64,000 nucleotides of DNA, from NCBI RefSeq assembly GCF_039535095.1, contig NZ_BAAAWN010000001.1:620001-684000 (forward strand). Direction: 5' to 3'. Positions 2,063 to 34,405 of this stretch are shown piece after piece. Position 1 is the stretch's first letter. Each line of letters begins with the position of its first letter. The translations under genes and the position numbers were made by a program. The notes beneath the pieces are model-generated. The model saw only the letters and a program-made list of their open reading frames with translations. It was not told the DNA's origin and ran no database searches. This DNA comes from Arthrobacter ramosus (lineage in GTDB: Bacteria; Actinomycetota; Actinomycetes; Actinomycetales; Micrococcaceae).

Positions 2063-2071
2063 TTGTCCACA
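2063..2071 (+). promoter_or_regulatory. DnaA-box-like TTGTCCACA upstream of AbiEi-like gene 1
   Basis: TTGTCCACA matches the DnaA-box consensus of high-GC actinobacteria. It ends 53 nt before the start codon at 2125. The same nonamer followed by T occurs 52 and 51 nt before the two related genes at 24369 and 33587. The fixed distance suggests function; DnaA binding itself is inference. Confidence 0.5.
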
Positions 2072-2124
2072 TGGAGGAATTCGGTGCTGCCACGTGCCGC
2101 AGTCCACATGGCAGCTTCTTATCC

Positions 2125-3078
2125 ATGACCCACTTGCCCCGTCTCATCCTCAGCCGAGATCACCTTTTTCACGGAACGACCCTCAAGGAACTCGCCCGGA
2201 GCGCCAAAACGGGTGCCTTGCATCGCGTCCGCCAAGGAGTGTACGTTGACGGCGCCGCGTGGGCCGCACTGAAACCGTGGGAGAAATACCGTGTCCGGGT
2301 CAGCGCTGCGGCCGAAACCTCTAGCGCACGGACCATATTCGCCAGGCACTCGGCAGCGTCTGTGTGGGGGATCCCCACCATAGGCGTGCATCATCCGGTC
2401 CAGGCCCTGACTCTCCAGAACGACGGCGGCCGCTCGCGGGCCGGGATATCCCGCCACTACGCGGACCCCGCCAGCCTCAAGGTGTATCGCTGCGAGGGAC
2501 TGCTGGTGACGGACAGGGTGCGCACGGTGCTGGACCTGGCCGCTTTCACCCCGTTCGTCGAATCCATCGCTCCCTTGGATCACGTGCTCAAAGCCGACCG
2601 GAAACGGGGATTGCCCGCCATTACGAAAGAGACGCTTCTGGCAGGAGCGGATGGAATTTACACGGCGGCGGCCATCCGGAGAATCCAAGCGGCAGTCGAT
2701 TTCGCAGATCCCCTGTCCGGATCTGCGGGGGAATCCTACAGCCGGGCTTTGATGCATGTCGCCGGATTCGATGCCCCGGTTCTTCAACGTGAATTCCGCG
2801 ACGAAGCGGGCCTCGTGGGCTATTCGGATTTCTATTGGAAGGGTGTGCGGGTGGCCGGGGAGTTCGACGGCATCGATAAGTACCTGAAACCGGAATTCCT
2901 CAAGGGACGGACTGCCGCTCAAGCCGTCGTCGAGGAGAAGCTGCGTGAGGACCGTCTCCGTGCCACCGGGTCCGGCGTCGTCCGTTGGGTGTGGGCGGAA
3001 CTCATGGCTCCCGGCGTGCTCGAACGGAAGCTGGCAGCGGCAGGGGTGCCCCGGCGTCGTCCGCGCGGAGCCCTATGA
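2125..3078 (+). CDS. AbiEi-type wHTH plus Vsr/DUF559-like nuclease-fold protein (paralogue 1)
   Basis: This 317-residue protein starts at ATG 2125 (MTHLPRLIL), matching the start of its paralogue at 24369 (MSTLPRLIL). The N-terminal ~100 residues fit the AbiEi antitoxin-type winged-helix region (RVRQGVYVDG; FARHSAASVWGIP). The C-terminal third fits the PD-(D/E)XK fold of Vsr/DUF559 proteins: GESYSR, then YSDFYW, VAGEFDGIDKY and EEKLREDRLRATG, with candidate metal ligands in D-FYW and GEFDG. It stands alone, with no AbiEii-type toxin beside it. A DnaA-box-like nonamer lies 53 nt before the start and 20-bp direct repeats flank it. A role in defence or in mobilising repeats is possible but unproven; a DNA-binding regulator is the alternative. 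Confidence 0.65.
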   Translation: MTHLPRLILSRDHLFHGTTLKELARSAKTGALHRVRQGVYVDGAAWAALKPWEKYRVRVSAAAETSSARTIFARHSAASVWGIPTIGVHHPVQALTLQNDGGRSRAGISRHYADPASLKVYRCEGLLVTDRVRTVLDLAAFTPFVESIAPLDHVLKADRKRGLPAITKETLLAGADGIYTAAAIRRIQAAVDFADPLSGSAGESYSRALMHVAGFDAPVLQREFRDEAGLVGYSDFYWKGVRVAGEFDGIDKYLKPEFLKGRTAAQAVVEEKLREDRLRATGSGVVRWVWAELMAPGVLERKLAAAGVPRRRPRGAL

Positions 3079-3108
3079 CGCGCTGGATTCCTGACGCTGC
3101 GCTGAATG

Positions 3109-3128
3109 CCTGACGCAGCCGGAATTCC
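3109..3128. repeat. 20-bp direct repeat right of AbiEi-like gene 1
   Basis: This is the second copy of CCTGACGCAG-NN-GGAATTCC, in the same orientation as 1981-2000; 18 of 20 bases agree. A further TTCCTGACGC at 3088-3097 just before it suggests a decayed extra unit. Confidence 0.7.
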
Positions 3129-3184
3129 CTGTGCGACAGGTATTTGGCGCGTCGCAAAGGATGCGGCGTCCTAGGATAAAAGGG

Positions 3185-4405
3185 ATGACCACCACCAGCA
3201 CCCTTCAGCCCTTCAATCTCCGCAGCATTGCGTTGCCCGCCTTTGGGCCCGCCCTGCTGTTCTGTATCGGCGAAGGTGCGGTCCTTCCGGTGGTGGCATT
3301 GTCCGCCCGCGACCTTGGTGCTTCCGTGGCGGTTTCCGCGCTCGTGGTCACCCTGATCGGGCTGGGGTCGTGGTTCTTCAACCTGCCCGCTTCGCTCATC
3401 ACCATCAAGTTCGGCGAACGATGGGCCATCGTGGCCGCGGGCGCAGCCGGAGCATTGGCCCTGTTGGCTGCCGGATTCGCGCCGCTCCTTGCGCACAACG
3501 GCATCTGGCTGCTCGCCGCGGCGATGACCGTGGTCGGGATGTCCACCAGCGTCTTCAACCTCGCGCGCCAGAAGTACCTCACGGAAGCCGTCCCGGTCAT
3601 CTACCGGGCGCGCGCACTCTCGACGTTGGGCGGCGTCACCCGGATCGGCGTGTTCATTGGTCCGTTCGTCGGCGCGGCCGTGATGCAGTTCGCCGGCATC
3701 AGCGGCGCGTATTGGGTTGGCGTGGCGGGTATGGCGGCCGCCGCGGTGCTGTCCCTCACCATCCCGGACCTTGTGTTGCCGGACGACGTCGACGGCGGAC
3801 GCAAGGGTCCCGAGCCCACCCTCCGTGGCGTCGCGGTTTCCCACGCGGGCGTGTTCCTGACTGTCGGGACCGGGATCCTGCTCCTCAGCGCGCTGCGGGC
3901 CTCACGCCAAGTGGTCATCCCTTTGTGGGCAGACCACTTGGGATTGGACGCCACACACGCATCACTCATCTACGGCTTGTCCGGCGCGATCGACATGCTG
4001 GTGTTCTATCCGGCCGGCAAGCTCATGGACCGCAAGGGGCGCATGTGGGTCGCCGTGCCGTCCACCCTCATCATGGGCGCGGCGTTGTTCCTCATGCCGT
4101 CGTCCGCGGATTTTGTGGGGCTGCTGCTGGCATCGCTCCTGATCGGCTTCGGCAACGGCATCGGCTCGGGACTCATCATGACGCTCGGAGCCGACTTTTC
4201 CCCGGACAAAGGCCGCGGGCAATTCCTCGGTTTGTGGAGGTTCATCTCGGACGCCGGTGCCACAGGCGGACCCGTGCTGCTCTCGGCCCTCACTGCCGCC
4301 GTATCGCTCGCGGCGGGCGTCTGGGCCACGGGCTTCCTGGGCCTGGCCGCCGCGGCGGTGTTCGCCGTCGCACTCCCGAAACTCAAGCACCGCAGGAACT
4401 ACTGA
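3185..4405 (+). CDS. MFS transporter, 12 predicted membrane segments
   Basis: The protein has 406 residues of alternating hydrophobic segments and short charged loops typical of the major facilitator superfamily. A motif-A-like loop, AGKLMDRKGRMWVAV, lies in the second half (about residue 278). VYRARALSTLGGVTRIGVFIGP sits in the region of segments 4-5. The start is ATG 3185, after AAAAGGG; TAGGAT at 3172 could be a -10 box giving a leaderless or near-leaderless message. The longer frame from GTG 3131 lacks a ribosome site. Export of small molecules or drugs is the usual role of this branch; the substrate is unknown. No regulator is adjacent. Confidence 0.8.
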   Translation: MTTTSTLQPFNLRSIALPAFGPALLFCIGEGAVLPVVALSARDLGASVAVSALVVTLIGLGSWFFNLPASLITIKFGERWAIVAAGAAGALALLAAGFAPLLAHNGIWLLAAAMTVVGMSTSVFNLARQKYLTEAVPVIYRARALSTLGGVTRIGVFIGPFVGAAVMQFAGISGAYWVGVAGMAAAAVLSLTIPDLVLPDDVDGGRKGPEPTLRGVAVSHAGVFLTVGTGILLLSALRASRQVVIPLWADHLGLDATHASLIYGLSGAIDMLVFYPAGKLMDRKGRMWVAVPSTLIMGAALFLMPSSADFVGLLLASLLIGFGNGIGSGLIMTLGADFSPDKGRGQFLGLWRFISDAGATGGPVLLSALTAAVSLAAGVWATGFLGLAAAAVFAVALPKLKHRRNY

Positions 4406-4490
4406 GCCTCTGACGAGGCCTCACTGACAGCCGGGGCGCCCGTCATTCGCTCCCAGACTCCGGTCAGGTGCCTCCGGTATGGTGAATTGG

Positions 4491-5804
4491 ATGTTCTCAG
4501 TCATCGCGCCTCCGCATCGTGCCCCCACTGCGAATCCGAGCACTGGGAAACCCGTCACGGACAGCGCCCCGCCGCTTGGTTCCGGGGCGGAGAATCGCCC
4601 GCCGAAGAGCGATGCAAAGCAATCCCGGCCTGATCTCGCGACGCTGACCGCACTGCGTTTCGTTGCCGCGCTGTGGGTGGTGTTCTTCCATCTTCAAGCC
4701 ATGCAGCACACCTTCCTCGCGCCCGTCTATGAGCTGTTCCGTCCCTTCATTGCCAATGGCGACCTGGGCGTGGACGTGTTCTTTGTGCTCAGCGGATTCA
4801 TCATCACCTACACGTACCTGGACCGGCTGGGCCCACGGTTCCGGTGGCGGACTGCCGGGGACTTTGTCTGGGCCAGGTTCGCCCGGATGTGGCCCGCGTT
4901 CGCGCTGGTCGTGGGCGTGGTTGGACTCTGGTTCGTATATGGGACCGCGCAGGAATCCGTGCGGGAGTGGTCCCTCCAGACCCAGGCTCCGGACCTGTCG
5001 CCGTGGGGTCTGGCCAAGCAGCTGCTGATGATGCATCTCTGGTTCCAACCGGGTACCGACGGCGCCAGCTGGTTCGGCCCTGGCTGGACGGTCAGCGCCG
5101 AGTGGCTGGCCTACTTGGCATTTCCCCTGCTGGCGCTGCTCCTGTTCCGGCTGCGCCGGCTGCATCCGCTGGCGGCACTGGCGGTCTCGGTGCTCGTTCT
5201 CCTGCCGACGGCCATCTGGGGCCCGGACCTGCCAATCGCCACGGATGAGCATCAGCCCTACGAATGGTTGCTGCGGATCGCATGCTGCTTCATTTCCGGC
5301 GCTTTCGCTTGCATCGCCGCACGGAACGCAGACCGTATGAAGTTCAACCCTGCCCTGGCCGGTCCCGGCGCCCTGCTGACCGGAACCGCCGTCGTCATCT
5401 TCCTGGCCACAGCCGGAAAACCTGGCCCCGGACGGCTGGCTGTGCTTGCCTTCCCGCTGCTCATTGCCCTTCTTAGCCTGACCCGCGGCTGGCTCCGCTC
5501 GGCGTTGTCGGCGCGGTGGCTGCAGTATGGCGGGCACAGTTCCTACAGTCTGTACTTGGTGCACATGTTCTTCATTTACCTCTTCTACTGGCTGATCAGG
5601 GACTGGCCGCACGGCGCCGGACCGCTGGCGGAGAACCTGCTCGCCGCGGCGTGCCTGCTCGGGATTGCGTTGGCCACCCATCTGCTGTTCAAGTACGTCG
5701 AGGAACCGGCCCGGCTCCGGCTGCGCGCATTGGTGCCGAAGGCGGGTGCCGCGAGGGTGGGTACCGCCGTCGGGCACTCAAGCCGGGGCAGCGCCCGTCA
5801 GTGA
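4491..5804 (+). CDS. acyltransferase 3 family membrane protein (OafA/YrhL type)
   Basis: These 437 residues place about ten membrane segments after an N-terminal Pro/Ser-rich tail. Family hallmarks are LRFVAALWVVFFHLQAM with the conserved His near residue 60, DLGVDVFFVLSGFI just after, and SYSLYLVHMFF near the C-terminus. Such enzymes O-acetylate or acylate surface glycans or lipids at the membrane. I place the start at ATG 4491 because TATGGT at 4478-4483 looks like a -10 box 7 nt upstream (leaderless). An in-frame ATG at 4479 lies inside that box. The last ~15 codons (AVGHSSRG) come from a short dispersed GCCGTCGGGCACTCA repeat, so the C-terminal tail may be repeat-derived. The acceptor is unknown. 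Confidence 0.8.
   Translation: MFSVIAPPHRAPTANPSTGKPVTDSAPPLGSGAENRPPKSDAKQSRPDLATLTALRFVAALWVVFFHLQAMQHTFLAPVYELFRPFIANGDLGVDVFFVLSGFIITYTYLDRLGPRFRWRTAGDFVWARFARMWPAFALVVGVVGLWFVYGTAQESVREWSLQTQAPDLSPWGLAKQLLMMHLWFQPGTDGASWFGPGWTVSAEWLAYLAFPLLALLLFRLRRLHPLAALAVSVLVLLPTAIWGPDLPIATDEHQPYEWLLRIACCFISGAFACIAARNADRMKFNPALAGPGALLTGTAVVIFLATAGKPGPGRLAVLAFPLLIALLSLTRGWLRSALSARWLQYGGHSSYSLYLVHMFFIYLFYWLIRDWPHGAGPLAENLLAAACLLGIALATHLLFKYVEEPARLRLRALVPKAGAARVGTAVGHSSRGSARQ
5763..5785. repeat. GCCGTCGGGCACTCA repeat, partial copy inside the acyltransferase 3' end
   Basis: CGCCGTCGGGCACTCAAGCCG matches the core of the 40-bp elements at 6628 and 7578. It lies in the last codons of the acyltransferase gene, close to the facing end of the alpha/beta hydrolase gene. 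Confidence 0.55.
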
Positions 5805-5807
5805 ACG

Positions 5808-6602
5808 TCAGCCGAGGGAACTGAGGAACGCGGTCGTGTCCGCTGCCACCTGGTCCGGACACTCCCACAAGACCAGGTGCCCTACTCCGGGATAAACCTT
5901 CAACACGGCGCCTGGAATTCGAGCCGCCAAGGCTTCCTGGTGCCTTCGAGGCAGCACGGAGTCATGTGCGCCCCACAGGATCAGGGTGGGCGCGAGAATG
6001 GTTCCGGACTCGGTGGGCGGAGTTGCCGTACGCAAACCATCGAGGATGCGCTTCCACGCGTGCGCGGGCATCCTGACTCCGTCGCGTACCCGGTCCTCGA
6101 TAAACCAAGCAGGAATCGCATGCAGTAGTGGGAACCAGGACAGGGAATTCCGTACCCAGTTCTCGTCGATGGGATCCTGGAGGCGGTCGACTTCGTTGGC
6201 GAAAGCGGGCCGGGCCCGAAGGCTCAGGGGAGAACCCACCAGCACAAGCGCCGCGACACGATCAGGGTGCCCGATGGCTAACTGCTGGGCCACATAGCCG
6301 CCGCTGGAGGAACCAAGGACGTACGGCCTTGGCACGCCGAGCGCATCCAGGATGGCTGCGGCGTCCCCGGCCTGTTCTACCAGCGAATAGCCGAGCTCCG
6401 GTTTCTCCGCGTCGCCCTGCCCGCGGAGGTCGGGCGCGTAGACCCTGAAGTCCGTCAGCAGAGGTACAAGGCGGTCAAAGCTGCGCCGGGATTCACCCCA
6501 GGCGTGCAAAAGCAACAACGGCTTCGCGTCGGCATCGCCGTGGACGAGGCACGGAACCCGTATGCCCGTGGTGAGCCTGAGATCCAGGACTTCGGCGCCC
6601 AT
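5808..6602 (-). CDS. alpha/beta hydrolase
   Basis: This is a 264-residue alpha/beta-hydrolase-fold enzyme. LLLLHAWGESRRSFDRL holds the oxyanion-hole region (HAWG). LGSSSGGYVAQQLA is the nucleophile elbow, with Ser in GSSSGG. LILWGAHDSVLPRR carries the acid Asp, and GVGHLVLWECPD carries the catalytic His. It resembles haloalkane dehalogenase/esterase/peroxidase-type members; the substrate cannot be read. The start at ATG 6602 (MGAEVLDL) is preferred. The frame is open to 6695, but that extension runs through the dispersed repeat at 6628-6667 and is not domain-like. The gene converges on the acyltransferase with only 3 bp between stops. Confidence 0.8.
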   Translation of the reverse strand: MGAEVLDLRLTTGIRVPCLVHGDADAKPLLLLHAWGESRRSFDRLVPLLTDFRVYAPDLRGQGDAEKPELGYSLVEQAGDAAAILDALGVPRPYVLGSSSGGYVAQQLAIGHPDRVAALVLVGSPLSLRARPAFANEVDRLQDPIDENWVRNSLSWFPLLHAIPAWFIEDRVRDGVRMPAHAWKRILDGLRTATPPTESGTILAPTLILWGAHDSVLPRRHQEALAARIPGAVLKVYPGVGHLVLWECPDQVAADTTAFLSSLG

Positions 6603-6627
6603 AGCATCAGGGTACGCCTCGCCGCGC

Positions 6628-6667
6628 GGCACTAAGGTGAGCGCCGCCGTCGGGCATTCACGCCGAA
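6628..6667. repeat. 40-bp repeat X, left copy
   Basis: The sequence runs from GGCACTAAGG through GCCGCCGTCGGGCATTCACG to CCGAA. The right copy at 7578-7617 has the same orientation and a few substitutions. Together with the ~103-bp repeats just inside, the two copies bracket the membrane-protein gene at 6873-7427. Confidence 0.75.
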
Positions 6668-6677
6668 AGTGGGCCGG

Positions 6678-6781
6678 GCCTCCAGATCCGACCACCTTTG
6701 GCCGGGCCGCCTCCTAGGATTCCGCGGACGTAAGGGGATTCGGGACTGGAAAGTTGTTCAAACGAGGTCGAATGTTGAGCC
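6678..6781. repeat. ~103-bp repeat, family 2, copy a
   Basis: It starts GCCTCCAGATCCGACCACC and ends GGTCGAATGTTGAGCC. Near-identical blocks recur at 7437-7540 (same orientation) and 16888-16990 (opposite orientation). The ends carry inverted GACCAC(C/T)TTTGG and GTGGTC sequences, so the unit is partly palindromic. It lies in the promoter region of the downstream membrane-protein gene. Confidence 0.8.
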
Positions 6782-6872
6782 ACCCGGCGATCCCGAGACG
6801 GAATCGTTGACACCTGGGAGGCACTGGCGTTCGATGATCGCAGGGGGAGCTGTCTCGGCGGGGAGTGAACAG

Positions 6873-7427
6873 TTCATGCGGGTAATCCGGAATGCGAAAC
6901 CTGTATCCATCGTGGCGGGCAGCACCCTGGTACTTGAGGGCTGTGTCGGGATGTGGCTGGCCGCCACAGCGCCGGCTGGGCCGGAAAATGGCAGGATTGT
7001 TCTGCTTTCCTTCTTCTTCGCCGTCGTTGCCCTGATCTGGGGAGTCGTCATCCTGTCATGGCGCTTCTGGTCCAAGCCGATGGTCCTGGTGCGGGCGCAG
7101 GCGGCAGATGCCATTCCCGTGATCTGGCCCCTGGCCGTGGTTTCGTCGCCCTTGCTGTCGGCGCCCGGATTCTCCGATCCCGCCAACCCGTCCTTGTGGA
7201 TGGGTGGCCTGCTGCTCGCATCGGTCGCCATTTCAGTAGTGCCTGCGGAGAAGGCGGCGCTCTTGGATATCCCGCCACTACGCCCGGGACACTTCCTTGA
7301 TTGGCTCAGATGGCAGAATTTCGGTGCCGGCTCGCTGTGGGTTTCGGGTTTCTTTACCGCGACGTACTTTCTTGATTCACGCCGGCCGACATCATCATCG
7401 AAAACCTCTATCGGGCAGAAGCGCTAA
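6873..7427 (+). CDS. small integral membrane protein of unknown function
   Basis: I do not recognise a family. The chosen start is ATG 6873, behind GGGGAG, giving 184 residues; ATG 6834 in the same frame is an alternative with a poorer site. Four hydrophobic stretches are visible: VSIVAGSTLVLEGCVGMWLA, VLLSFFFAVVALIWGVVIL, VIWPLAVVSSPLLS and WMGGLLLASVAISVV, the last followed by a soluble tail with WLRWQNFGAGSLWVSGFF. It is probably a four- or five-span membrane protein. It stands alone between two direct copies of a ~103-bp repeat and two of a 40-bp repeat, which suggests the gene and its flanks arrived or duplicated as a unit. Confidence 0.5.
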   Translation, partial: FMRVIRNAKPVSIVAGSTLVLEGCVGMWLAATAPAGPENGRIVLLSFFFAVVALIWGVVILSWRFWSKPMVLVRAQAADAIPVIWPLAVVSSPLLSAPGFSDPANPSLWMGGLLLASVAISVVPAEKAALLDIPPLRPGHFLDWLRWQNFGAGSLWVSGFFTATYFLDSRRPTSSSKTSIGQKR

Positions 7428-7436
7428 GCGGACCGA

Positions 7437-7540
7437 GCCTCTAGATCCGACCACCTTTGGTCGGTATAGCAGTCGGGAGTCCGCGAAATACAGGGATTCC
7501 GGACTGGAGGGTTGTTCAAAAGTGGTCGAATGTTGAGCCC
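7437..7540. repeat. ~103-bp repeat, family 2, copy b
   Basis: Begins GCCTCTAGATCCGACCACC and ends GGTCGAATGTTGAGCCC. It is in direct orientation to copy a, starting 10 bp after the stop of the membrane-protein gene. The internal GGGATTCCGGACTGGAGGGT matches copy a with a few changes. Confidence 0.8.
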
Positions 7541-7577
7541 AGGCCAGCAGACCCGGCCGTCCAGGAAGCTGCGCCGG

Positions 7578-7617
7578 GGCACTAAGGCGACTGCCGCCGT
7601 CGGGCACTCACGCCGAA
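7578..7617. repeat. 40-bp repeat X, right copy (forms the PAP2 gene 3' end)
   Basis: Runs from GGCACTAAGG through GCCGCCGTCGGGCACTCACG to CCGAA. The stop and last dozen codons of the leftward PAP2 gene lie inside this element. Confidence 0.75.
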
Positions 7618-8499
7618 TAGCCAGGTGGCAGCGACCGTTGCCAGATAACCGGTGATGACAATCAAGGAGACTCCGGCCCAGAAGTAGTTGGTGGTGCTTT
7701 CCTGCCCGAAACCGCTCGCAATTCCAATCAGCGAGTACACCGCAACGGCCGCGGCGGCGACGCCTGCCAGAGTCGACAGCGAAAGCCACAAACGCGACGA
7801 CGCCCAGTGGTCACCGCGGCCGTCCTGGACGTTCCAGCGCTTCCCAGTGCGCAGTACCAACCAGCCAGCCGGCAGCATGACCGCTCCCACCACGAGGAAC
7901 GCGGCGACGACGTCGGCGGGCCGGTGCCACTGGTTGATCAGCGTGGAAACCCCGGCCGCCACCGCGAAAGTGCCACCGAGGAACCCCGCCAGGGGCCGCC
8001 AGCGCGGCGACACCACCAGGAACACCGCGGCCGCCGCTGAGGCCGCCAACGTGGTGTGACCGGAGGGCAGCGAGTTCAGTTCAATGGTCTGGACGCCGCG
8101 GAACGGCCTGTTCGGAAACCAGTCCTTGAGCAGCTGAGTGGCCAGGTTTGCCGCGACACAAGCGACCACCGCGATCCCGGCTGACTTCCAGCGGCGGCGC
8201 ATTATCGTGACGAAAAGAACGACGACGGCGGCGATCGCCACCGAGATGACCGGCAGCCAATCGAGGAACTGGGTGGTCGCCCGTTCGGTGGGACCGTTGA
8301 TCGTCGCGGCTTCCACCAGGGCGGATTCGTCGATGTACTGTCCCGTCGTGGTGCGCACGAAAAAATAGTATGTGGCAATGAATGCGGCCATGCATGCCAG
8401 GGTTGCGAGCACAAAAAGTATGCCCATCCCAGCGCCCGCCCAGCGCCTGGTGGCGGTACCATGTGTGGCCGGCAGCCGGCTCGTCTTAGGAAAAGTCAT
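7582..8499 (-). CDS. PAP2-family membrane phosphatase
   Basis: This 305-residue membrane protein carries the three phosphatase motifs of the PAP2 superfamily in order: KDWFPNRPF (C1, Lys and Arg), SLPSGHTTLA (C2, PSGH) and STLINQWHRPADV (C3, catalytic His and Asp). These lie between about six membrane segments. Such enzymes dephosphorylate lipid phosphates such as undecaprenyl pyrophosphate or phosphatidic acid at the membrane. The start is ATG 8499 (MTFPKTSRL); the open frame further upstream is not domain-like. It follows the GT4 gene by 32 bp, so it is probably the third gene of the debranching/GT4 operon. Its C-terminal end (GVSARRRQSP) is encoded by repeat X, so the tail is probably repeat-derived. 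Confidence 0.85.
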   Translation of the reverse strand: MTFPKTSRLPATHGTATRRWAGAGMGILFVLATLACMAAFIATYYFFVRTTTGQYIDESALVEAATINGPTERATTQFLDWLPVISVAIAAVVVLFVTIMRRRWKSAGIAVVACVAANLATQLLKDWFPNRPFRGVQTIELNSLPSGHTTLAASAAAAVFLVVSPRWRPLAGFLGGTFAVAAGVSTLINQWHRPADVVAAFLVVGAVMLPAGWLVLRTGKRWNVQDGRGDHWASSRLWLSLSTLAGVAAAAVAVYSLIGIASGFGQESTTNYFWAGVSLIVITGYLATVAATWLFGVSARRRQSP

Positions 8500-8531
8500 T
8501 ACTTTCAGGGTGTCATATTTGGCTGGGAGGA

Positions 8532-12120: not shown

Positions 12121-12121
12121 A

Positions 12122-24307: not shown

Positions 24308-24316
24308 TTGTCCACA
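24308..24316 (+). promoter_or_regulatory. DnaA-box-like TTGTCCACA upstream of AbiEi-like gene 2
   Basis: TTGTCCACA, followed by TA, ends 52 nt before the start codon at 24369, the same placement as at 2063 and 33527. Confidence 0.5.
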
Positions 24317-24368
24317 TACGGCAGGAAGGGGCTCGCGCAGCCCGTTGTTGGGCTGTGATCGTAGATGA

Positions 24369-25370
24369 ATGAGCACACTCCCGCGGCTGATTCTGGCGAA
24401 CGACCTGTCCAGGATCGGTCTGACTACCCGGGGTTTGTCTGCACAGGCCCGTTCCGGGAACCTTGTCCGCATCCGGCATGGCGTATACGTGGAGGCGGTG
24501 CGGTGGAACTCTTTGCAGCCGTGGGAGCAGTACAGGCTCCGAGTCGAGGCCGCGGCAGAGACGTTCACTTCGCCCACCACGTTTTCGCACCACTCAGCCG
24601 CGGCAATTAGCGGGATACCGGTCATCCTACGGAAACAGCCGATCCACGCACTCACCGCATTCTCCGGCGGCGGTCGGTCCCGCGCAGGAGTCCGTCGGCA
24701 CTATGTACCTGAACAAGCCCACAACAGTGAACAGTTGGAACGGTTTCTCGTCACGGGCCGGATCCGTACTGTTCTCGATATCGCCGCAACGGTCCCCTTT
24801 GCGGAAGCCGTGGTGCCCATGGATCACATGCTGAAACCGGACGCGGCTCGAGGCATTCCTGCAGTCACGAAGGAGGAATTGCTGGCGGGCATAGATGGGA
24901 GGTATTCGCAGGCGGCGGTTCGGCGTATCAAGGCGGTGGTCGATTTCGCCGATCCGCAGTCCTGCTCGCCGGGAGAGTCCTATAGCCGGGGGCTGATCCA
25001 CGTTGTCGGCTTTGCCCCGCCCGTGCTGCAGTACGAGGTCAGGAACGATACTTCCAGGGTCGCCATCACGGATTTCTATTGGGAGGAGACCAGGGTTGTC
25101 GGTGAATTCGATGGTCGCGAGAAGTACCTCAAACCGGAGTACCTGCGTGGCCGGACGCCGTCGGATGTGGTGTATGAGGAAAAGGTACGCGAAGACCGGA
25201 TCCGGGCCACGGGCAGAAACGTGGCTCGGTGGGTCTGGGACGAACTCAACAGTCCGGGCCGACTGGAACGAATACTGCTCGACGCCGGAGTGCCGCTCCG
25301 TCGTCGCGCCTCTGGGGGACACCCAAATGTGTCCGTGACAAGCAAACGGGCCGGTGACACTCGGATATGA
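24369..25370 (+). CDS. AbiEi-type wHTH plus Vsr/DUF559-like nuclease-fold protein (paralogue 2)
   Basis: 333 residues, similar along its whole length to the gene at 2125. The N-terminal region holds RIRHGVYVEA and HHSAAAISGIPV. The C-terminal nuclease-like region holds GESYSRGL, ITDFYW, VVGEFDGREKYLKPEYL and EEKVREDRIRATGRNVARWVW, with Asp, Glu-x-Asp and Lys in PD-(D/E)XK order. It is an orphan gene between menD and a leftward amino-acid ABC operon. The last codons and the TGA stop lie inside a 21-bp-arm perfect palindrome, so the protein tail (KRAGDTRI) is encoded by the repeat. Function is unknown; the AbiEi name comes from the domain, but no toxin partner is present. Confidence 0.65.
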   Translation: MSTLPRLILANDLSRIGLTTRGLSAQARSGNLVRIRHGVYVEAVRWNSLQPWEQYRLRVEAAAETFTSPTTFSHHSAAAISGIPVILRKQPIHALTAFSGGGRSRAGVRRHYVPEQAHNSEQLERFLVTGRIRTVLDIAATVPFAEAVVPMDHMLKPDAARGIPAVTKEELLAGIDGRYSQAAVRRIKAVVDFADPQSCSPGESYSRGLIHVVGFAPPVLQYEVRNDTSRVAITDFYWEETRVVGEFDGREKYLKPEYLRGRTPSDVVYEEKVREDRIRATGRNVARWVWDELNSPGRLERILLDAGVPLRRRASGGHPNVSVTSKRAGDTRI

Positions 25371-25389: not shown

Positions 25390-25407
25390 GCAGCGATTGC
25401 CTGTTTG

Positions 25408-26184
25408 CTAGAGCACGCGGCTGAGGAATTCCTTCGTGCGGGCGTGCTGGGGGTTGGCGATGATTTCGCGGGGGTCACCGGATTCCACCACCACACCTCC
25501 GTCCATGAAGGTCAGGCGGTCGCCGACTTCGCGGGCAAAGCCGATCTCGTGGGTCACCACGATCATGGTCATGCCGGACTTGGCCAGGTCCTTCATCACG
25601 TTGAGCACATCGCCCACGAGCTCCGGGTCAAGGGCGGACGTCGGCTCGTCGAAGAGCATCAGCTCCGGTTCCATGGCCAGGGCCCGGGCGATCGCGACAC
25701 GTTGCTGCTGGCCGCCGGAAAGCTGAGCCGGGTAGTGGTTGGCTCGGTCGGCCAGGCCTACACGATCCAACAATTCGAGGGCGGCCTTCTTGGCGACGCC
25801 CTTGTTCTTGCCTTTGACCTGAACGGGCGCTTCCATGACGTTGTACAGGGCCGTCTTGTGCGGGAACAGGTTGAAGCGCTGGAAGACCATGCCGATTTCC
25901 CGGCGTTGAGCGGCGATTTCCTTGACCTTCAGATCGTGGAGGCGGCCGTTGACTTCGCGGTAGCCGATCAGCTGGTCACCGACGGAAATGCGGCCGGCGC
26001 TGATGGTTTCCAGCAGGTTCACGCAGCGGAGCATCGTGGACTTGCCCGAACCGGACGGGCCGATGACAACGGACACCTCGCCCTGGTTGACCGTCAGGTC
26101 GATGCCGCGGAGCACGTGATGGGGCCCGAAGTACTTATGGAGGCCTTCGATCCGCACCAGCGGTTTCTGGGTGGTGATCGTCAT
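25408..26184 (-). CDS. polar amino-acid ABC transporter ATPase (GlnQ type)
   Basis: 258 residues with GPSGSGKST (Walker A, about residue 40), [14 protein letters not shown] (signature, about residue 148), [14 protein letters not shown] (Walker B) and the switch His in [12 protein letters not shown]. The pattern matches the GlnQ/HisP group that energises polar amino-acid import. It is the third gene of the leftward operon: binding protein, permease, ATPase. It overlaps the permease stop by 4 bp. The imported amino acid is not evident. Confidence 0.93.
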
Positions 26185-28144: not shown

Positions 28145-28188
28145 TTTCTTACCTTTTGTTGCAGTGGATGCGAAACTAATCGGTTCAT

Positions 28189-28218
28189 AGTGTAGCGCCG
28201 AACATGAGATGTGCGTCA
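28189..28218 (-). promoter_or_regulatory. candidate promoter of the amino-acid ABC operon
   Basis: Read on the minus strand: TGACGC, 18 bp, TACACT, with the -10 box about 45 nt before the ATG at 28144. The -35 box is weak. Confidence 0.35.
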
Positions 28219-28345
28219 CAGAAAACTAAGTTTTACTATTGGATAACCTACCAAGTAAAAAATCAAGCCCCCCACCATGGCTATTGTCTCGCACCCCAGA
28301 CATCCACGGGGGTAGGTTTCGAACCGAATCCTTGGGTTTGGACTC

Positions 28346-29737
28346 TTAGCTGCTGATACCCAGTGACTCGAGCATCGGCCGGAATTTGGCCCAGGTCTCG
28401 GCCAGTTCGGCGTCGGGAACGGAGCCTTCAACGATCCCGCAGCCCGCGTAGAGGCGCACAGTCGTAGGACTTTCGATGATCGCGCCGCGCAGTGCGATGC
28501 CCCACTCGCCGTTGCCCGCGGCGTCGAGCCACCCGACCGGTCCGGCATACGGCCCGCGATCCATATGCTCAAGCTCCCGGATCAGTTCCCCGGCAACCAA
28601 GGTAGGCGTGCCACACACGGCGGCCGTGGGGTGGAGCGCGTTGATCAGGGCAAGGCACGTAGGGACATGTCCCTCGATATCGGCGAGCTCGGCCTTCACG
28701 TCCGATGCCAGATGCCACACATTGGGCAGCTCCAGAATGAACGGTTCGCTGTGGGCGTTCATGGCCTCGGAAAAGGGCGCGAGCTGGGTGGTCAGCGATT
28801 GGATGGCGATCTCGTGCTCGTGCCGTTGTTTCTCGGAACCGGCCAGCACGCGTTCGGCGTATTCCATGGGGGAGCCGTTCACGCCCTCTGCGTCGCGACG
28901 GTCCAGCGTCCCGGCCAGGACCCGCGCCTGTGCAGTGCGGCCCTCCACCTGGATGAGCATTTCCGGCGTCGCCCCCACCAAGCCGTCGACGCCGTAGGTC
29001 CAGCATTCGCGGTAACGGCTGGCCAGCTGCTGCAGCACTTTGGCGGCGTTGACGCCGTCGGGCAGCGTCGCCACGACGTCGCGCGCGAGAACCAGCTTCT
29101 CCAGCTTTCCGGTTCGGATTTCCGCCACGCCGTCGGCCACGGCCTGCTTCCACGCGGATTCGCTGAGCGAACCGCTCTCCAGCGTGACCTTCCCGTCTCC
29201 CAACTGGCTCGCATCTGTTGTCGTTATGGGCCTTCTAAACGACAACAACTGCGAGTTAGTTGGGTGCCCGACGCCGGAGCCTCCAGCCGCGGTAGGCTCA
29301 CCGTCCGCGGGGTTAAGCCAGCCCGCCAGGGCGGCGAGGGCGCCCGCCTCGGTGAGTTCGACGTCGTCGAGCGTCAACTGGGTGAGCCACGACTGCCCAT
29401 CCCGGATCCCGACAACGATTTCCGGAAGGATCAAGCGGGATTCAAAGTCGGACGTCTTGGAGAAGGCAAAGGAGCCAAAGGCCACAGGGCCCGTGCCGGG
29501 GATCTCAAGGGGATCCGTGACGTCGGCCTCGATGACAAGGTGGCGCCACCACATGTCGGCCTCGAGAAAGCGATCAGGACCGGAAGCAGTGAACCGCGCG
29601 AGTTCGCCAAAGCCCACCAGTCCGTTCTCGCGGCGGGACCAGCACAGGACATCGTCCCGGACCAGAAATGACGGCAGTCCCCCGGAGGATGAATCAACAT
29701 CGAGGGGGACTGTCAAGGTGCGGAGCGTACTCGTCAT
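28346..29737 (-). CDS. menF: isochorismate synthase with an in-frame 22-codon palindromic insertion
   Basis: A 463-residue chorismate-binding enzyme of the MenF/EntC/DhbC group that converts chorismate to isochorismate for MenD. The C-terminal catalytic domain shows GKLEKLVLARDVVATLPDG, VGATPEMLIQVEG, LAGTLDRRD, HEHEIAIQSL, HLASDVKAEL, LHPTAAVCGTP and YAGPVGWLDAAGNGEWGIALRGA. At about residues 158-180 it carries PTNSQLLSF and ITTTDASQLG, encoded by a complete 66-bp copy of the dispersed palindromic repeat. The repeat is 22 codons long, so the frame is kept. The insertion lies just before the conserved domain, probably in a surface loop. The gene is divergent from menG; the start at ATG 29737 has TAATGT 9 nt upstream and no ribosome site. 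Confidence 0.9.
   Translation of the reverse strand: MTSTLRTLTVPLDVDSSSGGLPSFLVRDDVLCWSRRENGLVGFGELARFTASGPDRFLEADMWWRHLVIEADVTDPLEIPGTGPVAFGSFAFSKTSDFESRLILPEIVVGIRDGQSWLTQLTLDDVELTEAGALAALAGWLNPADGEPTAAGGSGVGHPTNSQLLSFRRPITTTDASQLGDGKVTLESGSLSESAWKQAVADGVAEIRTGKLEKLVLARDVVATLPDGVNAAKVLQQLASRYRECWTYGVDGLVGATPEMLIQVEGRTAQARVLAGTLDRRDAEGVNGSPMEYAERVLAGSEKQRHEHEIAIQSLTTQLAPFSEAMNAHSEPFILELPNVWHLASDVKAELADIEGHVPTCLALINALHPTAAVCGTPTLVAGELIRELEHMDRGPYAGPVGWLDAAGNGEWGIALRGAIIESPTTVRLYAGCGIVEGSVPDAELAETWAKFRPMLESLGISS
29199..29264. repeat. 66-bp palindromic repeat, family 1, copy 2, inside menF
   Basis: It runs from CCCAACTGGCTCGCA to GCGAGTTAGTTGGG with TTGTCGTT and AACGACAACAACTGC arms. It is the same length and layout as the intergenic copies. 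Read on the minus strand it has no stop codon in the menF frame, although the reverse frames do. Confidence 0.9.
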
Positions 29738-29817
29738 GATGGAACAACATTACTCCCGCGGGCAACGGGGGCTGCGCGGACCGGAGCGCCCCGAAAGTTC
29801 TTCCCATATTTGTCTGA

Positions 29818-29829
29818 GACAATTGCAGG
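29818..29829 (+). promoter_or_regulatory. menG -10 box, leaderless start
   Basis: GACAAT at 29818-29823 is followed by 6 nt before the GTG start at 29830, the same layout as menC and menD. Confidence 0.4.
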
Positions 29830-30606
29830 GTGAACCGAGCATCCTTGGAAAAGCGTCCGGACGAAGTTGCGACGATGTTTGACGATGTCGCCCCCAAATA
29901 CGACGTCGTCAACGATGTCCTGTCCATGGGGCAGACCCGGCGTTGGCGCCGCGTCGTCGTGGACGCGATGGATGTTCGGGTAGGCCAAAAGGTCCTGGAT
30001 CTGGCTGCCGGTACGGGCACGTCCAGCGAACCGTACGCCGACGCCGGAGTGGACGTTGTGGCCTGCGACTTCTCCCTGGGGATGCTGAAGGTCGGCAAAC
30101 GCCGCCGTCCGGACATCAACTTCGTTGCCGGGGACGCCACCAAGCTGCCCTTCGCGGACGACTCCTTTGACGCCTGCACCATTTCCTTCGGCCTGCGCAA
30201 CGTCAACGAACCACATAAGGCCCTCGCGGAGATGTTCCGCGTCACCAAGCCCGGCGGACGCCTCGTCATCGCCGAATTCTCGGCCCCCGTGGTGCCCCTC
30301 TGGCGGACCATGTACACCGAATACCTCATGCGTGCATTGCCCGCCATCGCCACCAAGGTCTCCTCGAACCCGGACGCCTACGTGTACCTGGCCGAGTCCA
30401 TCCGCGCATGGCCGGACCAGGACCACCTGGCCGCGTGGCTGCAGGAAGCCGGCTGGACCGACGTCAACTACCGCAACCTGAGCGGCGGCATCGTAGCGGT
30501 GCACCGCGCCCAGAAGCCCGGCGCCGAACACCGCGAAAGCGTTCCCGTGGCCAAGCTGCGCCGCCAGATCAAGCCGCGCCGCCAAGCCGGCGATCAGTCC
30601 CGCTAA
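29830..30606 (+). CDS. menG: demethylmenaquinone methyltransferase (UbiE family)
   Basis: 258 residues, a class I SAM methyltransferase that makes the last ring methylation of menaquinone. [20 protein letters not shown] and WRRVVVDAM are the UbiE signature at the N-terminus. [12 protein letters not shown] is the SAM loop, [17 protein letters not shown] the adenine-side region, and [12 protein letters not shown] the second UbiE signature. GTG 29830 is the start. It is followed after 22 bp by the menJ-like gene and then the polyprenyl synthase gene, all rightward, and diverges from menF over a 92-bp gap. Confidence 0.93.
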
Positions 30607-30628
30607 CCGGCCTATTAACAAGGACGCT

Positions 30629-32026
30629 GTGAACGTACTGATAGTCGGCGCAGGGCCAGCCGGGTCCACCGCCGCGTACTACCTTGCCCAGGCGGGCATT
30701 TCCGTGACGGTTCTGGAAAAGACCGCCTTCCCGCGAGAAAAAGTCTGTGGCGATGGCCTTACTCCCCGCGCCGTCCGCGAAATCCAGAAGCTCGGCCTCC
30801 CGCACGCCGAGGACGAGGGTTGGCGCCTCAACAAGGGGCTCAGGCTCATCGCCGGCGGACGCACCATTGAATTGCCGTGGCCCGAGGTCGCCGATTTTCC
30901 CACGTACGGACTCATCCGCACGCGCCTCGGATTCGACGAGGAGCTGGCCCGGCACGCCCAGTCGGCAGGCGCCGTCGTACTTGAACGCCACAGTGTCACC
31001 GAAGCCCTGCGCGACGACGCCGGGCGCGTGATCGGCGTGCGCGCCGCCTTGCTCGACGAGTCCGGACGCAAGACGGGCGAAACGCGCGACTTCCATGCCG
31101 ACGTCGTGCTCGCCGCAGACGGCAACTCGACACGGACCGCCGTTTCGCTCGGCATGCACAAGCGCGACGACCGCCCGCTCGGCGTCGCCGTCCGCACCTA
31201 CTTCACCTCGCCCCGCCACGACGACGACTGGATGGAAGGCTGGCTCGAACTCGATTCGCCGGCTTCCCACGCCTCGCAAGCTCGGCGCGGGGCCCGCGCC
31301 GGCTCTCTTCGCAAGTCCGGCAAGCCGCTGCCCGGCTACGGTTGGGTTTTCGGCGTCGGCGACGGCACGTCCAACGTCGGCCTCGGGATCCTGAACTCCT
31401 CCAAGGAATTCGGGAAGCTCGACTACAAGAATGTCCTGCGCGAATGGACCGCCGGCATGCCGTCCGAATGGGGCTTCACGCCCGAAAACCAGGTGGGGGA
31501 GATTCGCGGCGCCGCCCTGCCCATGGGCTTCAACCGCACCCCGCACTACTCGCCCGGGCTCATGCTCCTGGGCGACGCCGGCGGCATGGTTTCACCGTTC
31601 AACGGCGAGGGCATTTCCTACGCCATGGAGTCCGCCCGCTTTGCGGCCGAGTTCATCATCGACGCGTCCTCGCGTTCCCGTTCGGCCGGATGGACGGCCG
31701 ACGACGCCGACGCGCACCTTTCGCGCTACGCGGACTATGTGCGGGACCAGTGGGGTTCGCACTTCACCCTGGGCCGCGTCTTTGCTGCCCTCATCGGCAA
31801 GCCCGCAGTCATGAAACTCGCGCTACGGACGGGCATGCCCATCCCGGTGCTGATGCGCTTTGTGGTGCGGATGCTCGCCAACCTCACGGATGCGTCAGCA
31901 AAGGGTTTCGAGGACCGCGTCATCCGCGTCCTCGAGATGCTGGTCCCGGCCACGTCCAACACCACATCCACTGCCGCTTCCACCCGCGTCGGCACCGAAT
32001 CAACGCTTTCCTCCGCGAAAAGTTAG
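30629..32026 (+). CDS. geranylgeranyl reductase-family flavoprotein (MenJ-like)
   Basis: 465 residues. VLIVGAGPAGSTAAYYLAQA at the N-terminus is the FAD-binding GxGxxG fold, VCGDGLTPRAVREI and MLLGDAGGMVSPFNGEGI are the two family motifs, and ADVVLAADGNSTRTAV completes the FAD site. In actinobacteria the homologue MenJ saturates one isoprene unit of menaquinone, giving MK(H2). Position between menG and a prenyl diphosphate synthase gene supports this over a role in carotenoid or archaeol-type lipids. The start is GTG 30629. The gene ends 9 bp before the next start, so they are probably co-transcribed. Confidence 0.87.
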   Translation: MNVLIVGAGPAGSTAAYYLAQAGISVTVLEKTAFPREKVCGDGLTPRAVREIQKLGLPHAEDEGWRLNKGLRLIAGGRTIELPWPEVADFPTYGLIRTRLGFDEELARHAQSAGAVVLERHSVTEALRDDAGRVIGVRAALLDESGRKTGETRDFHADVVLAADGNSTRTAVSLGMHKRDDRPLGVAVRTYFTSPRHDDDWMEGWLELDSPASHASQARRGARAGSLRKSGKPLPGYGWVFGVGDGTSNVGLGILNSSKEFGKLDYKNVLREWTAGMPSEWGFTPENQVGEIRGAALPMGFNRTPHYSPGLMLLGDAGGMVSPFNGEGISYAMESARFAAEFIIDASSRSRSAGWTADDADAHLSRYADYVRDQWGSHFTLGRVFAALIGKPAVMKLALRTGMPIPVLMRFVVRMLANLTDASAKGFEDRVIRVLEMLVPATSNTTSTAASTRVGTESTLSSAKS

Positions 32027-32035
32027 GGTTAACCC

Positions 32036-33139
32036 GTGACTCACTCTGCCGAACACAGCTGGACGCATGCCGGGCACGGCCTGCCGGACGCTGTCGAACC
32101 CGCTCCCACCACTACCGCGATCGCCACTGGCCTGCAGCTTCCTGCCGGTTTTGCGGCTATCGCCAAGGACGTGGAGCTGGGTCCTGCCATCACCACGAAC
32201 CTTGCCCGGGTGGAAAAGAAGCTCCGCGAAGCAATTGCCAACTCGGATCCCCTGGCTGACGCAACGTCACGTCACCTGGTGGAAGCCGGCGGCAAGCGCA
32301 TCCGCCCGTTGTTGACCCTCCTTTGCGCCCACCTCGGCGACGCATCCCGTCCGGAAGTGGTCCAGGCCGCCGTCGTGGTTGAACTGACCCACCTCGCAAC
32401 CCTCTATCACGACGACGTGATGGACTCGGCGCCCTACCGCCGCGGCGCCCCCACGGCCCACGAAGTCTGGGGCAACTCGGTGGCTATCCTCACGGGTGAC
32501 CTGATCTTCGCCCGCGCCTCGATCCTGGTGTCCGAACTCGGTTCGCGTGCCCTGGGAATCCAGGCCCGCACCTTCGAACGCTTGTGTCTCGGGCAGCTGC
32601 ACGAAACCGTGGGCCCGCGTGAAGGCGAGGACGCGGTGGAGCACTACCTCTCCGTCGTCGCCGACAAGACCGGTTCCCTCGTCGCCGCCTCGGGCCAGCT
32701 CGGTGCCATCTTCGCGGGCGCCGACGAAGCCTTCGAGGACGTGCTGGTGGAATACGGCGAGAAGGTTGGCGTCGCCTTCCAATTGGCCGACGATGTCATC
32801 GACGTCACCGGCGTCAAGGTCAAGTCCGGCAAGTCCCCGGGTACGGACCTCCGCGAAGGCGTTCCCACGCTGCCCGTCCTCCTGCTCCGCAAGGCGGCCG
32901 ACAATGGTGACCGCTCCGCCGTCGAACTCTTGAAGCTGGTGGACGGCGACCTGTCGTCCGACGAAGCCTTGGCCTTGGCTGTCGCCGGGCTGCGCGAGCA
33001 CCCTGTCACCGCCGAATCCTGGGTGATTGCGCGCCAGTGGTCCGCTGAAGCCATTGAAGCCTTGAAGCCGTTGCCCGAAGGCGTGGTCAAGGAGTCGCTC
33101 ACCAACTTCGCCCACGCGGTTGTGGAGCGCGCCAGCTAA
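32036..33139 (+). CDS. long-chain polyprenyl diphosphate synthase for the menaquinone tail
   Basis: A 367-residue trans-prenyltransferase. The first Asp-rich motif is LYHDDVMDSAPYRRG (about residue 125), the second LADDVIDVTG (about residue 250), with GGKRIRPLL before them and the Lys in KTGSLVAASGQ between. Small residues before the first motif (VELTHLATL) suit a long product. Co-location with menG and the menJ-like gene indicates it makes the octa- or nonaprenyl chain attached to the quinone. The start is GTG 32036; a 66-bp palindrome follows 16 bp after the stop. Confidence 0.9.
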   Translation: MTHSAEHSWTHAGHGLPDAVEPAPTTTAIATGLQLPAGFAAIAKDVELGPAITTNLARVEKKLREAIANSDPLADATSRHLVEAGGKRIRPLLTLLCAHLGDASRPEVVQAAVVVELTHLATLYHDDVMDSAPYRRGAPTAHEVWGNSVAILTGDLIFARASILVSELGSRALGIQARTFERLCLGQLHETVGPREGEDAVEHYLSVVADKTGSLVAASGQLGAIFAGADEAFEDVLVEYGEKVGVAFQLADDVIDVTGVKVKSGKSPGTDLREGVPTLPVLLLRKAADNGDRSAVELLKLVDGDLSSDEALALAVAGLREHPVTAESWVIARQWSAEAIEALKPLPEGVVKESLTNFAHAVVERAS

Positions 33140-33154
33140 TTTCTTCGCCGCAGT

Positions 33155-33220
33155 CCCAACTGACTCGCAGTTGTTGTCGTTTTGACCCGTCATAACGACA
33201 ACAACTGCGAGCTACTTGGG
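33155..33220. repeat. 66-bp palindromic repeat, family 1, copy 3
   Basis: From CCCAACTGACTCGCAGTTG to CGAGCTACTTGGG. The arms CTCGCAGTTGTTGTCGTT and AACGACAACAACTGCGAG pair perfectly. It lies 16 bp after the polyprenyl synthase stop. Confidence 0.9.
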
Positions 33221-33240
33221 CGGGGACGGGCTTAAATGCA

Positions 33241-33296
33241 ATGGCCCCGGTTCCTTGCAACGCTACGAGTCACGCGCTGCAACGAACCGGGACCAT
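33241..33296. repeat. 19-bp inverted repeat
   Basis: ATGGCCCCGGTTCCTTGCA and TGCAACGAACCGGGACCAT pair with two mismatches around an 18-nt loop. No T-run follows. It may be a second terminator for the menaquinone operon or structure in the leader of the small frame at 33333. Confidence 0.6.
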
Positions 33297-33332
33297 AATC
33301 TCCGTTCGCATCAGATCCACCGGAGGCATTTA

Positions 33333-33425
33333 GTGAATCCGGTTACAGCTTATGACAACTTTGTCACGGGTGCAACTTTCCCGGTCAAAGGGTTTTCCGG
33401 AGTTTGTCGGGAATTCGCGTTGTAA
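33333..33425 (+). CDS. possible 30-residue small protein
   Basis: A GTG-started frame of 30 codons preceded by GGAGG at 33322 with 6-nt spacing, the best ribosome site in this intergenic region. The peptide (VNPVTAYDNFVTG, then GVCREFAL) has no recognisable domain or membrane segment. It could be a real small gene or the remnant of the 5' end of a lost gene. The good ribosome site is the only support. Confidence 0.3.
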   Translation: MNPVTAYDNFVTGATFPVKGFSGVCREFAL

Positions 33426-33426
33426 A

Positions 33427-33439
33427 TTCCCCACCTTTG
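33427..33439. repeat. outer inverted repeat, left, of the DUF559 gene
   Basis: TTCCCCACCTTTG here pairs with CAAAGGTGGGGA at 34488-34499 (12 bases matched), one on each side of the gene at 33587. Confidence 0.5.
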
Positions 33440-33497
33440 ACGGACCCGTGGACCCTGGATGCCTGGATTCTCGGCGTCGGAATCCCCGGAGTTCGCT

Positions 33498-33511
33498 CAA
33501 AACCGGGGAGT
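33498..33511. repeat. inner inverted repeat, left, of the DUF559 gene
   Basis: CAAAACCGGGGAGT here is matched by ACTCCCCGGTTTTTG at 34407-34421 (one extra T), directly after the gene's stop. CCCCGG at 33484 can also pair locally with CCGGGG in this arm. Confidence 0.55.
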
Positions 33512-33526
33512 CTCGGCGCCTGCCAG

Positions 33527-33535
33527 TTGTCCACA
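33527..33535 (+). promoter_or_regulatory. DnaA-box-like TTGTCCACA upstream of the DUF559 gene
   Basis: TTGTCCACA, followed by TA, ends 51 nt before the start codon at 33587. Third occurrence of this nonamer at nearly the same distance from an AbiEi/DUF559-type gene. Confidence 0.5.
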
Positions 33536-33586
33536 TAGCGAAACTTTGGCCTTTCAGCGCCATCGCGATGCTGTTGGAGTTGCTTT

Positions 33587-34405
33587 ATGGACCTCGTTGG
33601 CTTCCTGAAATACGCGGGCTCCGCTGCGAGAACCTCCACCGTGAAGCAGGCCGGCTTCTCCGAACGCGTCATCCGAGCGGCGGTTGCTGGAGGCGAGATC
33701 GTGCGGCGACGCTGGGGTGTACTGGCCTTGCCCGTCGCTCAGGAGGACGTCGTCGCAGCCCTCAGCGCAAACGGGCTGCTCACCTGCGCATCCGGGGCCC
33801 GGCACCATGGCATCTGGGTTTTGCATGAACCCCGGACCCTCCATTTGCTGTGCAGGCACGGCAAGGCCCAGGATTTTGTGGTCCACCGTGAGTCAGTCGT
33901 GGAGACCCGGCACATCGGACCCGTGGCCAGCCTGACAGACACGCTGCTGCATTCCCTCCGATGCCTGCCTGAAATTGAGGCGGCCATCATGGTGGAAAGT
34001 GCCCTCCTTCAAGGGCGGACGAATCTTGATTACCTCCGTGAGAGGCTTCCGGGTAACCGGAACGGGGCGGCACGAAAGGTGCTCACACTGGTCGACGGTT
34101 CGGCAGATTCTCCGATCGAGGTCGTGGCGCGGACACTTTTCCGGAATGCAGGGATCCATACCGAGACGCAGGTCGAATTGCCCGGAATCGGCATTGTGGA
34201 CTTCTTGCTGGAGGGAAGGCTGATCGTGGAGGTCGACGGCGAGAGCCACCTGCAGCCTCGGCAAGTCAAGAAGGACAGGCGACGCAACAACGCAGGAACG
34301 GTGAAAGGCTTTCTGGTTCTCAGATACGACTATTCGCAGATCGTGTATCAGCGGGACACAGTGCTTGCCGAGGTTCTCCAGGTCCTACGCCAAAGAGGCC
34401 GCTGA
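33587..34405 (+). CDS. DUF559/Vsr-like endonuclease-fold protein
   Basis: 272 residues. The N-terminal part is an AbiEi-like winged helix (AARTSTVKQAGFSERVIRAA; GARHHGIWVL). The C-terminal domain is a clear DUF559/Vsr-type PD-(D/E)XK fold: SPIEVVARTLFRNAG, VELPGIGIVDFLLEG, IVEVDGESHLQPRQVKKDR and LVLRYDYSQIV, with Asp in VDF, Glu in VEVDG and Lys/Arg following. This fold hydrolyses DNA in Vsr and relatives; the activity here is unproven. The start is ATG 33587 behind GGAG. It shares its upstream nonamer with the two AbiEi-like genes and is enclosed by two nested inverted repeats. It is an orphan with no methyltransferase beside it. Confidence 0.72.
   Translation: MDLVGFLKYAGSAARTSTVKQAGFSERVIRAAVAGGEIVRRRWGVLALPVAQEDVVAALSANGLLTCASGARHHGIWVLHEPRTLHLLCRHGKAQDFVVHRESVVETRHIGPVASLTDTLLHSLRCLPEIEAAIMVESALLQGRTNLDYLRERLPGNRNGAARKVLTLVDGSADSPIEVVARTLFRNAGIHTETQVELPGIGIVDFLLEGRLIVEVDGESHLQPRQVKKDRRRNNAGTVKGFLVLRYDYSQIVYQRDTVLAEVLQVLRQRGR

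Follow-up and report, generated by a model that had tools for sequence, protein, structure and literature searches.

In the 64-kb window analyzed here (positions 620001–684000 of a 5.25-Mb contig of Arthrobacter ramosus, the genome being labelled G000), three nuclease-like genes were found to carry a common promoter element, which also stands before genes for DNA uptake and recombination. In this genus, the element reads T-N-TCCACATA(G/C), ends approximately 51 nt before the start codon, and is usually accompanied by a −10 element (YANNNT) whose end lies 6 nt upstream of the ATG. Judging from sequence features of this kind, the three genes probably belong to a competence-type regulon, namely one of DNA uptake and recombination. 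How actinobacteria control DNA uptake is poorly known, and a 2026 paper on Micrococcus luteus describes the competence regulon as currently unknown and its regulatory cascade as still to be identified (PMC12849477). Since the element stands before comEA-comEC, comFC, pilus, and recombination genes, the regulon question becomes directly testable: the box could serve as bait for the regulator, and genome sequences could reveal the regulon. In addition, the many orphan AbiEi-family and DUF222-HNH genes would gain a common context, DNA uptake.

As the first-pass annotation of the window had claimed, the nonamer TTGTCCACA occurs three times (from 2063, 24308, and 33527), always on the + strand and upstream of the three nuclease-like genes only, at the distances from the start codons given in Table 1. 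Shuffled windows contained a mean of 0.36 copies and none of 100 reached three. Its statement that the spacing exceeds chance was borne out. The same annotation proposed a regulatory element of these three genes. The element proved real but not specific to them: among 13 distinct AbiEi/DUF559-type genes of the genome, collected with PF04480 and protein searches, 10 have T-N-TCCACA-T(A/G) ending 51–53 nt before the start codon, five as the exact nonamer and the others as CTGTCCACATAG, TTTTCCACATAG/C, or GTTTCCACATAG. Two further box genes, at 1099 kb and 1747 kb, were judged AbiEi-like by eye only. A system private to the three genes was rejected, the box being genome-wide (TTGTCCACA 51 times vs 19 for the reversed control; NTNTCCACAKR 149 vs 54, with positions among the matches listed up to 3.8 Mb).

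Across 25 genomes of the same genus, the pattern TCCACATAN{48,50}ATG matched 416 times (9 to 28 per genome), against 13 matches of the reversed control; in fourteen genomes of other families, the corresponding numbers were 5 and 2 (these totals, like the others of this kind below, are sums over per-genome tables). When the spacer was shortened by ten nucleotides to N{38,40}, 116 pairs were obtained in the 25 genomes vs 15 in the reversed control. The box is therefore enriched as such, and is about 3.6 times more frequent at the right distance than ten nucleotides nearer; part of the 116 nearer pairs are the same sites, with a −10 ending in GAT before G. In one relative (G004), several near-identical promoters, TCCACATAGG...TTTTTG(G/T)CGGT...GGATG, suggest that the box stands before the members of a multicopy gene family.

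Inspection of the interval between box and ATG revealed conservation at promoter positions only. A set of the listed promoters (113 entered, with gene-internal-looking or near-duplicate ones omitted, and 101 left after removal of near-copies) showed both A-11 and T-7 in 84 of 101, while shifted registers gave 0–3. As such a selected set favours the −10 result, the test was redone without selection on the whole set of 45 matches from G000 and the relative G001: 32 had both bases, and eleven shifted registers gave 0–4. A set of 95 sites, which was picked for having a −10 and is hence informative for its box letters only, showed T at box position 1 in 97 %, although the pattern did not demand it, and most often T at the third position (41 %). 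A CT near −36/−35 tracked the box better than the ATG. The box itself was dismissed as a −35 element, as its distance of about 39 nt from the −10 is too great, and also as a DNA-uptake sequence, as its copies are few and bound to start codons.

The −10 register in 32 of the 45 unselected sites also speaks against a mobile unit that includes the box, the genes having moved with their upstream end or inserting beside the site. The AbiEi/DUF559 nuclease genes are indeed multi-copy, with numbers that differ among genomes, as such a unit would have it. Nevertheless, the conservation confined to promoter positions and the presence of the same box before core genes, comEA and recA among them, made this explanation scarcely credible. 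Searches gave no relative confirmed in viral contigs, one distant phage match, and three plasmid records, and phage or plasmid cargo was likewise set aside.

The element also stands before other genes. In G000, it precedes comEA (SLBB and HHH domains), with a ComEC-like gene, named by eye, directly downstream; a phosphoribosyltransferase gene labelled comFC in this analysis; an RcpC/CpaB gene; a RecQ-like helicase gene; and a candidate without Pfam match that resembles a CbiA-domain (CpaE/TadZ-like) protein of a relative (L179). Further box genes encode an AbiEi_1 protein, DUF4192, DUF2461, and DUF1877 (below the cut-off) proteins, a TrmB-type methyltransferase, and an M23 peptidase. At the RecQ-like gene, two opposed boxes lie few bases apart between it and a divergent phosphomannomutase-like gene (L246:6767–6780; G000 approximately 4,222.77 kb). 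In G001, 16 of 20 sites were read, the other four being apparently gene-internal (for G020 and G008, some of the sites were read). These 16 sites precede genes for RecA, RecQ-like, ComEA, RcpC, CbiA-type, M23, and AbiEi_1-type (below the cut-off) proteins, four of AbiEi- or DUF559/MTES_1575-type, two of DUF222-HNH type, one protein without Pfam match, and two short frames of 48 aa and 10 codons. The first-pass annotation had named the nonamer before unrelated genes as a finding that would speak against its proposal. This was borne out in part: the other box genes are unrelated in sequence, but many of them are DNA-uptake or recombination genes.

The spread of the element was examined at three levels. 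Its strict form has at least one match in 100 of 149 genomes and in 28 of 32 genera of the family. The closest named comEA relatives of this genome are Arthrobacter, which points to the same group for it. At 66 of 80 comEA loci, an in-frame start follows T-N-TCCACA by 48–55 nt (60/67 in the Arthrobacter group and 6/13 outside it), whereas nine other distance bins gave 0–13 of the 80 and 0–3 of the 13, some of them from alternative in-frame starts. The boxed comEA loci outside the group carry the box as TTGTCCACAG, twice in Cutibacterium and once each in Acidipropionibacterium, Microlunatus, Labedaea, and Granulicoccus. Over the class, TTGTCCACAGN{47,51}ATG had matches in 102 of 197 genomes, while the reversed control gave 6 matches. 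Thirty loci were fetched from among the matches listed, and 20 of them were scanned with Pfam; these comprised one comEA, three comFC-type (one above the cut-off), seven AbiEi/DUF559-type (one weak), one DUF222-HNH, and eight others, such that the four types make up 12 of the 30. The ten unscanned loci are mostly short frames and partly chance. A genome of another family of the class (G348) contains seven similar TTGTCCACAG promoters holding TGTCGGTGG.

The sequences themselves establish the element, where it lies, the −10, the genes concerned, and how widely it occurs. Taken as a regulon, the gene set would be read as follows. A regulator would bind T-N-TCCACATA(G/C), or TTGTCCACAG in other actinobacteria, at a site whose centre lies some 56 nt 5' of the start codon, directly upstream of a weak −35 region. 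The promoters would be leaderless, with a −10 (YANNNT) that stops 6 nt short of the ATG. If the regulator holds a set position with respect to RNA polymerase and transcription starts at the start codon itself, a constant distance from box to ATG is to be expected. On induction, the site would act as an activator site, turning on the uptake channel (comEA-comEC), comFC, and parts of the Flp/Tad pilus (rcpC/cpaB); the same switch would turn on recombination enzymes (RecQ-like, and RecA in relatives) and the set of AbiEi-winged-helix/DUF559 nuclease genes, with DUF222-HNH genes in relatives. The nucleases, presumably active and induced along with competence, might cut or restrict incoming DNA; this role is a guess and the least certain element of the proposal. 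In M. luteus, loss of rcpC/cpaB lowers transformation 10^4-fold (PMC8467076). A bolder version, possible but on balance doubtful in our view, would extend the regulon over much of the class Actinomycetes: one DnaA-box-like element, read by DnaA or another activator, would jointly switch on uptake, recombination, and AbiEi-nuclease and DUF222-HNH genes as a renewable set, so that every transforming cell would confront incoming DNA with an array of orphan nucleases.

Such an arrangement resembles the competence regulons of ComK in B. subtilis, SigX in streptococci, and the TfoX-dependent promoters of gammaproteobacteria, in which a single element precedes uptake-channel, comF, pilus, and recombination genes. 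It differs from them in its sequence, its leaderless promoters, its fixed box-to-start distance, and its nuclease families as members. These three regulators are named in PMC6667448. The competence genes of M. luteus belong to the same families (comEA/EC, the Flp pilus, and an rcpC/cpaB-tadZ/cpaE operon), and comEA/EC is induced there in poor medium (PMC8467076, PMC12849477); the excerpts of these two papers mention no promoter box. In the openly licensed papers searched, neither a description of the element nor a paper naming DUF559 and AbiEi together was found. The suggestion of an undescribed system held in this respect, but it was drawn too narrowly, as uptake and recombination genes are included.

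Several observations weigh against the competence reading. The TrmB, DUF2461, DUF4192, DUF1877, and M23 peptidase genes have no known competence role, nor do purB and an enolase-type gene, both boxed in one relative. T-N-TCCACA is absent from 6.2 kb around dprA in this genome, and no recA site turned up in it, though recA is boxed in relatives. High counts of the strict form are confined to the genus of the window and a few others, many genera having few matches; the six boxed comEA loci among 13 outside the Arthrobacter group compare with up to 3/13 at control distances; DUF559 loci in the family sample have the box at 50–53 nt in only 11 of 29 (control bins 0–4); and, of the 30 class-wide loci, 18 are different genes, short frames, or frames left unscanned. 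Among the three window genes, a full leaderless −10 is found at 24369 only: the promoter fit is poor upstream of the ATG at 2125, where both A-11 and T-7 are missing, and the −10 of gene 33587 is incomplete, lacking A-11. Finally, the remaining three of the 13 paralogues have the reversed box CTGTGGATAAC, 37–40 nt before the ATG, a geometry that perhaps represents a second arrangement with another regulator or mode. This reversed arrangement was seen at DUF559-type genes near 491 kb, 703 kb, 842 kb, and 3,536 kb of G000 (L054, L053, L055), the gene near 703 kb being additional to the three paralogues. At the dprA locus itself (L240; G000 1,668.5–1,674.7 kb), the comM-like gene before dprA seems, by eye, truncated beside an inserted stretch with a DUF262-like gene.

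The box genes without a competence role, i.e., TrmB, DUF2461, DUF4192, the M23 peptidase, and others, would be accommodated by a general activator of leaderless promoters responding to stress or DNA damage, with competence genes as a minority. Consistent with this, the recA promoters of relatives (L142, L166, L171) hold, between box and ATG, TGTCAG-N10-TAGCGT, which is the PafBC motif according to PMC8151990, and recA may in these relatives be under joint control of competence and DNA damage. However, TGTC(A/G) was found in the expected region of only 11 of the 101 promoters, and the set did not conform to the PafBC regulon pattern TGTC(A/G)G-N10-TANNNT. Moreover, in the class-wide sample, the gene families that came up again beyond the genus were comEA, comFC, AbiEi/DUF559, and DUF222-HNH. 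We regard a general stress activator as distinctly unlikely.

As to the identity of the regulator, the first-pass annotation had linked the nonamer to DnaA. If DnaA read the box as a DnaA box, uptake, recombination, and nuclease genes would track the replication state. The core often equals TTGTCCACA, a form of the DnaA box, and recA and RecQ-like genes lie within the box set. In this genome, dnaA alone scored above the cut-off for DnaA domain IV; a second such protein was discarded, as the one further match (E 0.53) holds a stop codon. Five T-N-TCCACA boxes, GTATCCACAGG, TTATCCACATG, TTATCCACAAG, TTATCCACAGT, and GTTTCCACAGG, were found in 6.4 kb around dnaA and share the TCCACA core, but all five lack the TA(G/C) tail. 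The element differs from a DnaA box in this tail and also in its free third position, with T in 41 % of sites, and its sites are single, in one orientation and at one fixed promoter position. Rok, a repressor of competence in B. subtilis, is found together with DnaA at some sites (PMC11841835). DnaA is a possible but not a favoured reader of the box, and we consider the replication-linked explanation unlikely.

AbiEi antitoxins are autorepressors, and AbiEi winged-helix proteins, e.g., a small AbiEi_1 protein encoded beside relA, might read the box themselves in own and cross-regulation. The AbiEi_1 gene of this genome (L244:4607–5331; G000 approximately 2,194.6 kb) has a palindromic box, GTTATCCACATAAC, and adjoins relA, and relA was found beside AbiEi_1 in all five loci compared (G000 and four relatives). 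The box nonetheless does not change between genes whose winged helices have diverged, nor at comEA, whose loci were read without regard to AbiEi genes. Self-reading by AbiEi proteins appears very unlikely. Amino acids and (p)ppGpp influence competence in M. luteus (PMC6667448), and a screen in that species implicated an HTH-17 protein whose gene diverges from rcpC (PMC8467076); no HTH-17 gene was seen beside rcpC in this genome. The observations on HTH-17, AbiEi_1/relA, and (p)ppGpp are taken as leads only.

Table 1. Boxes, putative −10 elements, and nuclease-like genes of the window
Feature	Position	Strand	Remarks
Box TTGTCCACATG	2063..2073	+	TG replaces the usual TA; CACA ends 53 nt 5' of ATG at 2125
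Gene, 317 aa, AbiEi-like winged helix and DUF559-like C-terminus, sister subfamily	2125..3078	+	PADLOC AbiEi N-terminal match; profile link to DUF559 group
Box TTGTCCACATA	24308..24318	+	CACA ends 52 nt 5' of ATG at 24369
Putative −10 GATCGT, leaderless promoter	24357..24362	+	Ends 6 nt before ATG; A-11 and T-7 both present
Gene, 333 aa, AbiEi-like winged helix and DUF559-like C-terminus	24369..25370	+	AbiEi_4 below cut-off; PADLOC AbiEi; profile link to DUF559 group
Box TTGTCCACATA	33527..33537	+	CACA ends 51 nt 5' of ATG at 33587
Weak putative −10 TGGAGT	33575..33580	+	T-7 present, A-11 absent
Gene, 272 aa, AbiEi-like N-terminus and DUF559 (PD-(D/E)XK, Vsr-like) domain	33587..34405	+	DUF559 above cut-off

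The products of the three window genes had been described as an AbiEi-like winged helix joined to a Vsr/DUF559-like C-terminus. Each of the three gave PADLOC AbiEi profile matches in its N-terminal part, though weakly in the third (E 0.0072), and the nuclease assignment was direct for the 272-aa protein, in which Pfam recognized DUF559 with 41.8 bits (cut-off 20.6). The 317-aa protein, which aligned with relatives having the same start, gave no match in the Pfam scan, and the 333-aa protein matched AbiEi_4 with 20.7 bits, under the cut-off of 25. These two form a sister group without Pfam nuclease match, which is tied to the 272-aa group by profile comparison alone (hhalign, probability 93.8 %). 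A single-sequence structure model reached a pLDDT of only 31.

The window proteins share the AbiEi-like winged helix with the type IV toxin-antitoxin system AbiE, but they have a nuclease domain at the C-terminus and their genes have no AbiEii toxin neighbour. In agreement with the first-pass annotation, no toxin or methyltransferase partner was detected among nine nearby proteins scanned, and no AbiEii toxin gene adjoins; AAA_21, a family with AbiEii in its description, was also matched by one nearby ABC ATPase, and this was taken as a generic ATPase match. Profiles and conserved acidic residues assign the window proteins to the fold family of the DUF559/Vsr-like PD-(D/E)XK nucleases, but here the domain is fused to the AbiEi-like one, and no restriction-modification or repair partner was seen beside the three genes. 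The profile of the 272-aa group matched the solved endonuclease-like protein 3hrl (E 2.5e-7) and the mobile-intron protein 3r3p (E 0.026), and D205, E215, H221, D230, R233, and N235 were invariant across seven aligned proteins of this group.

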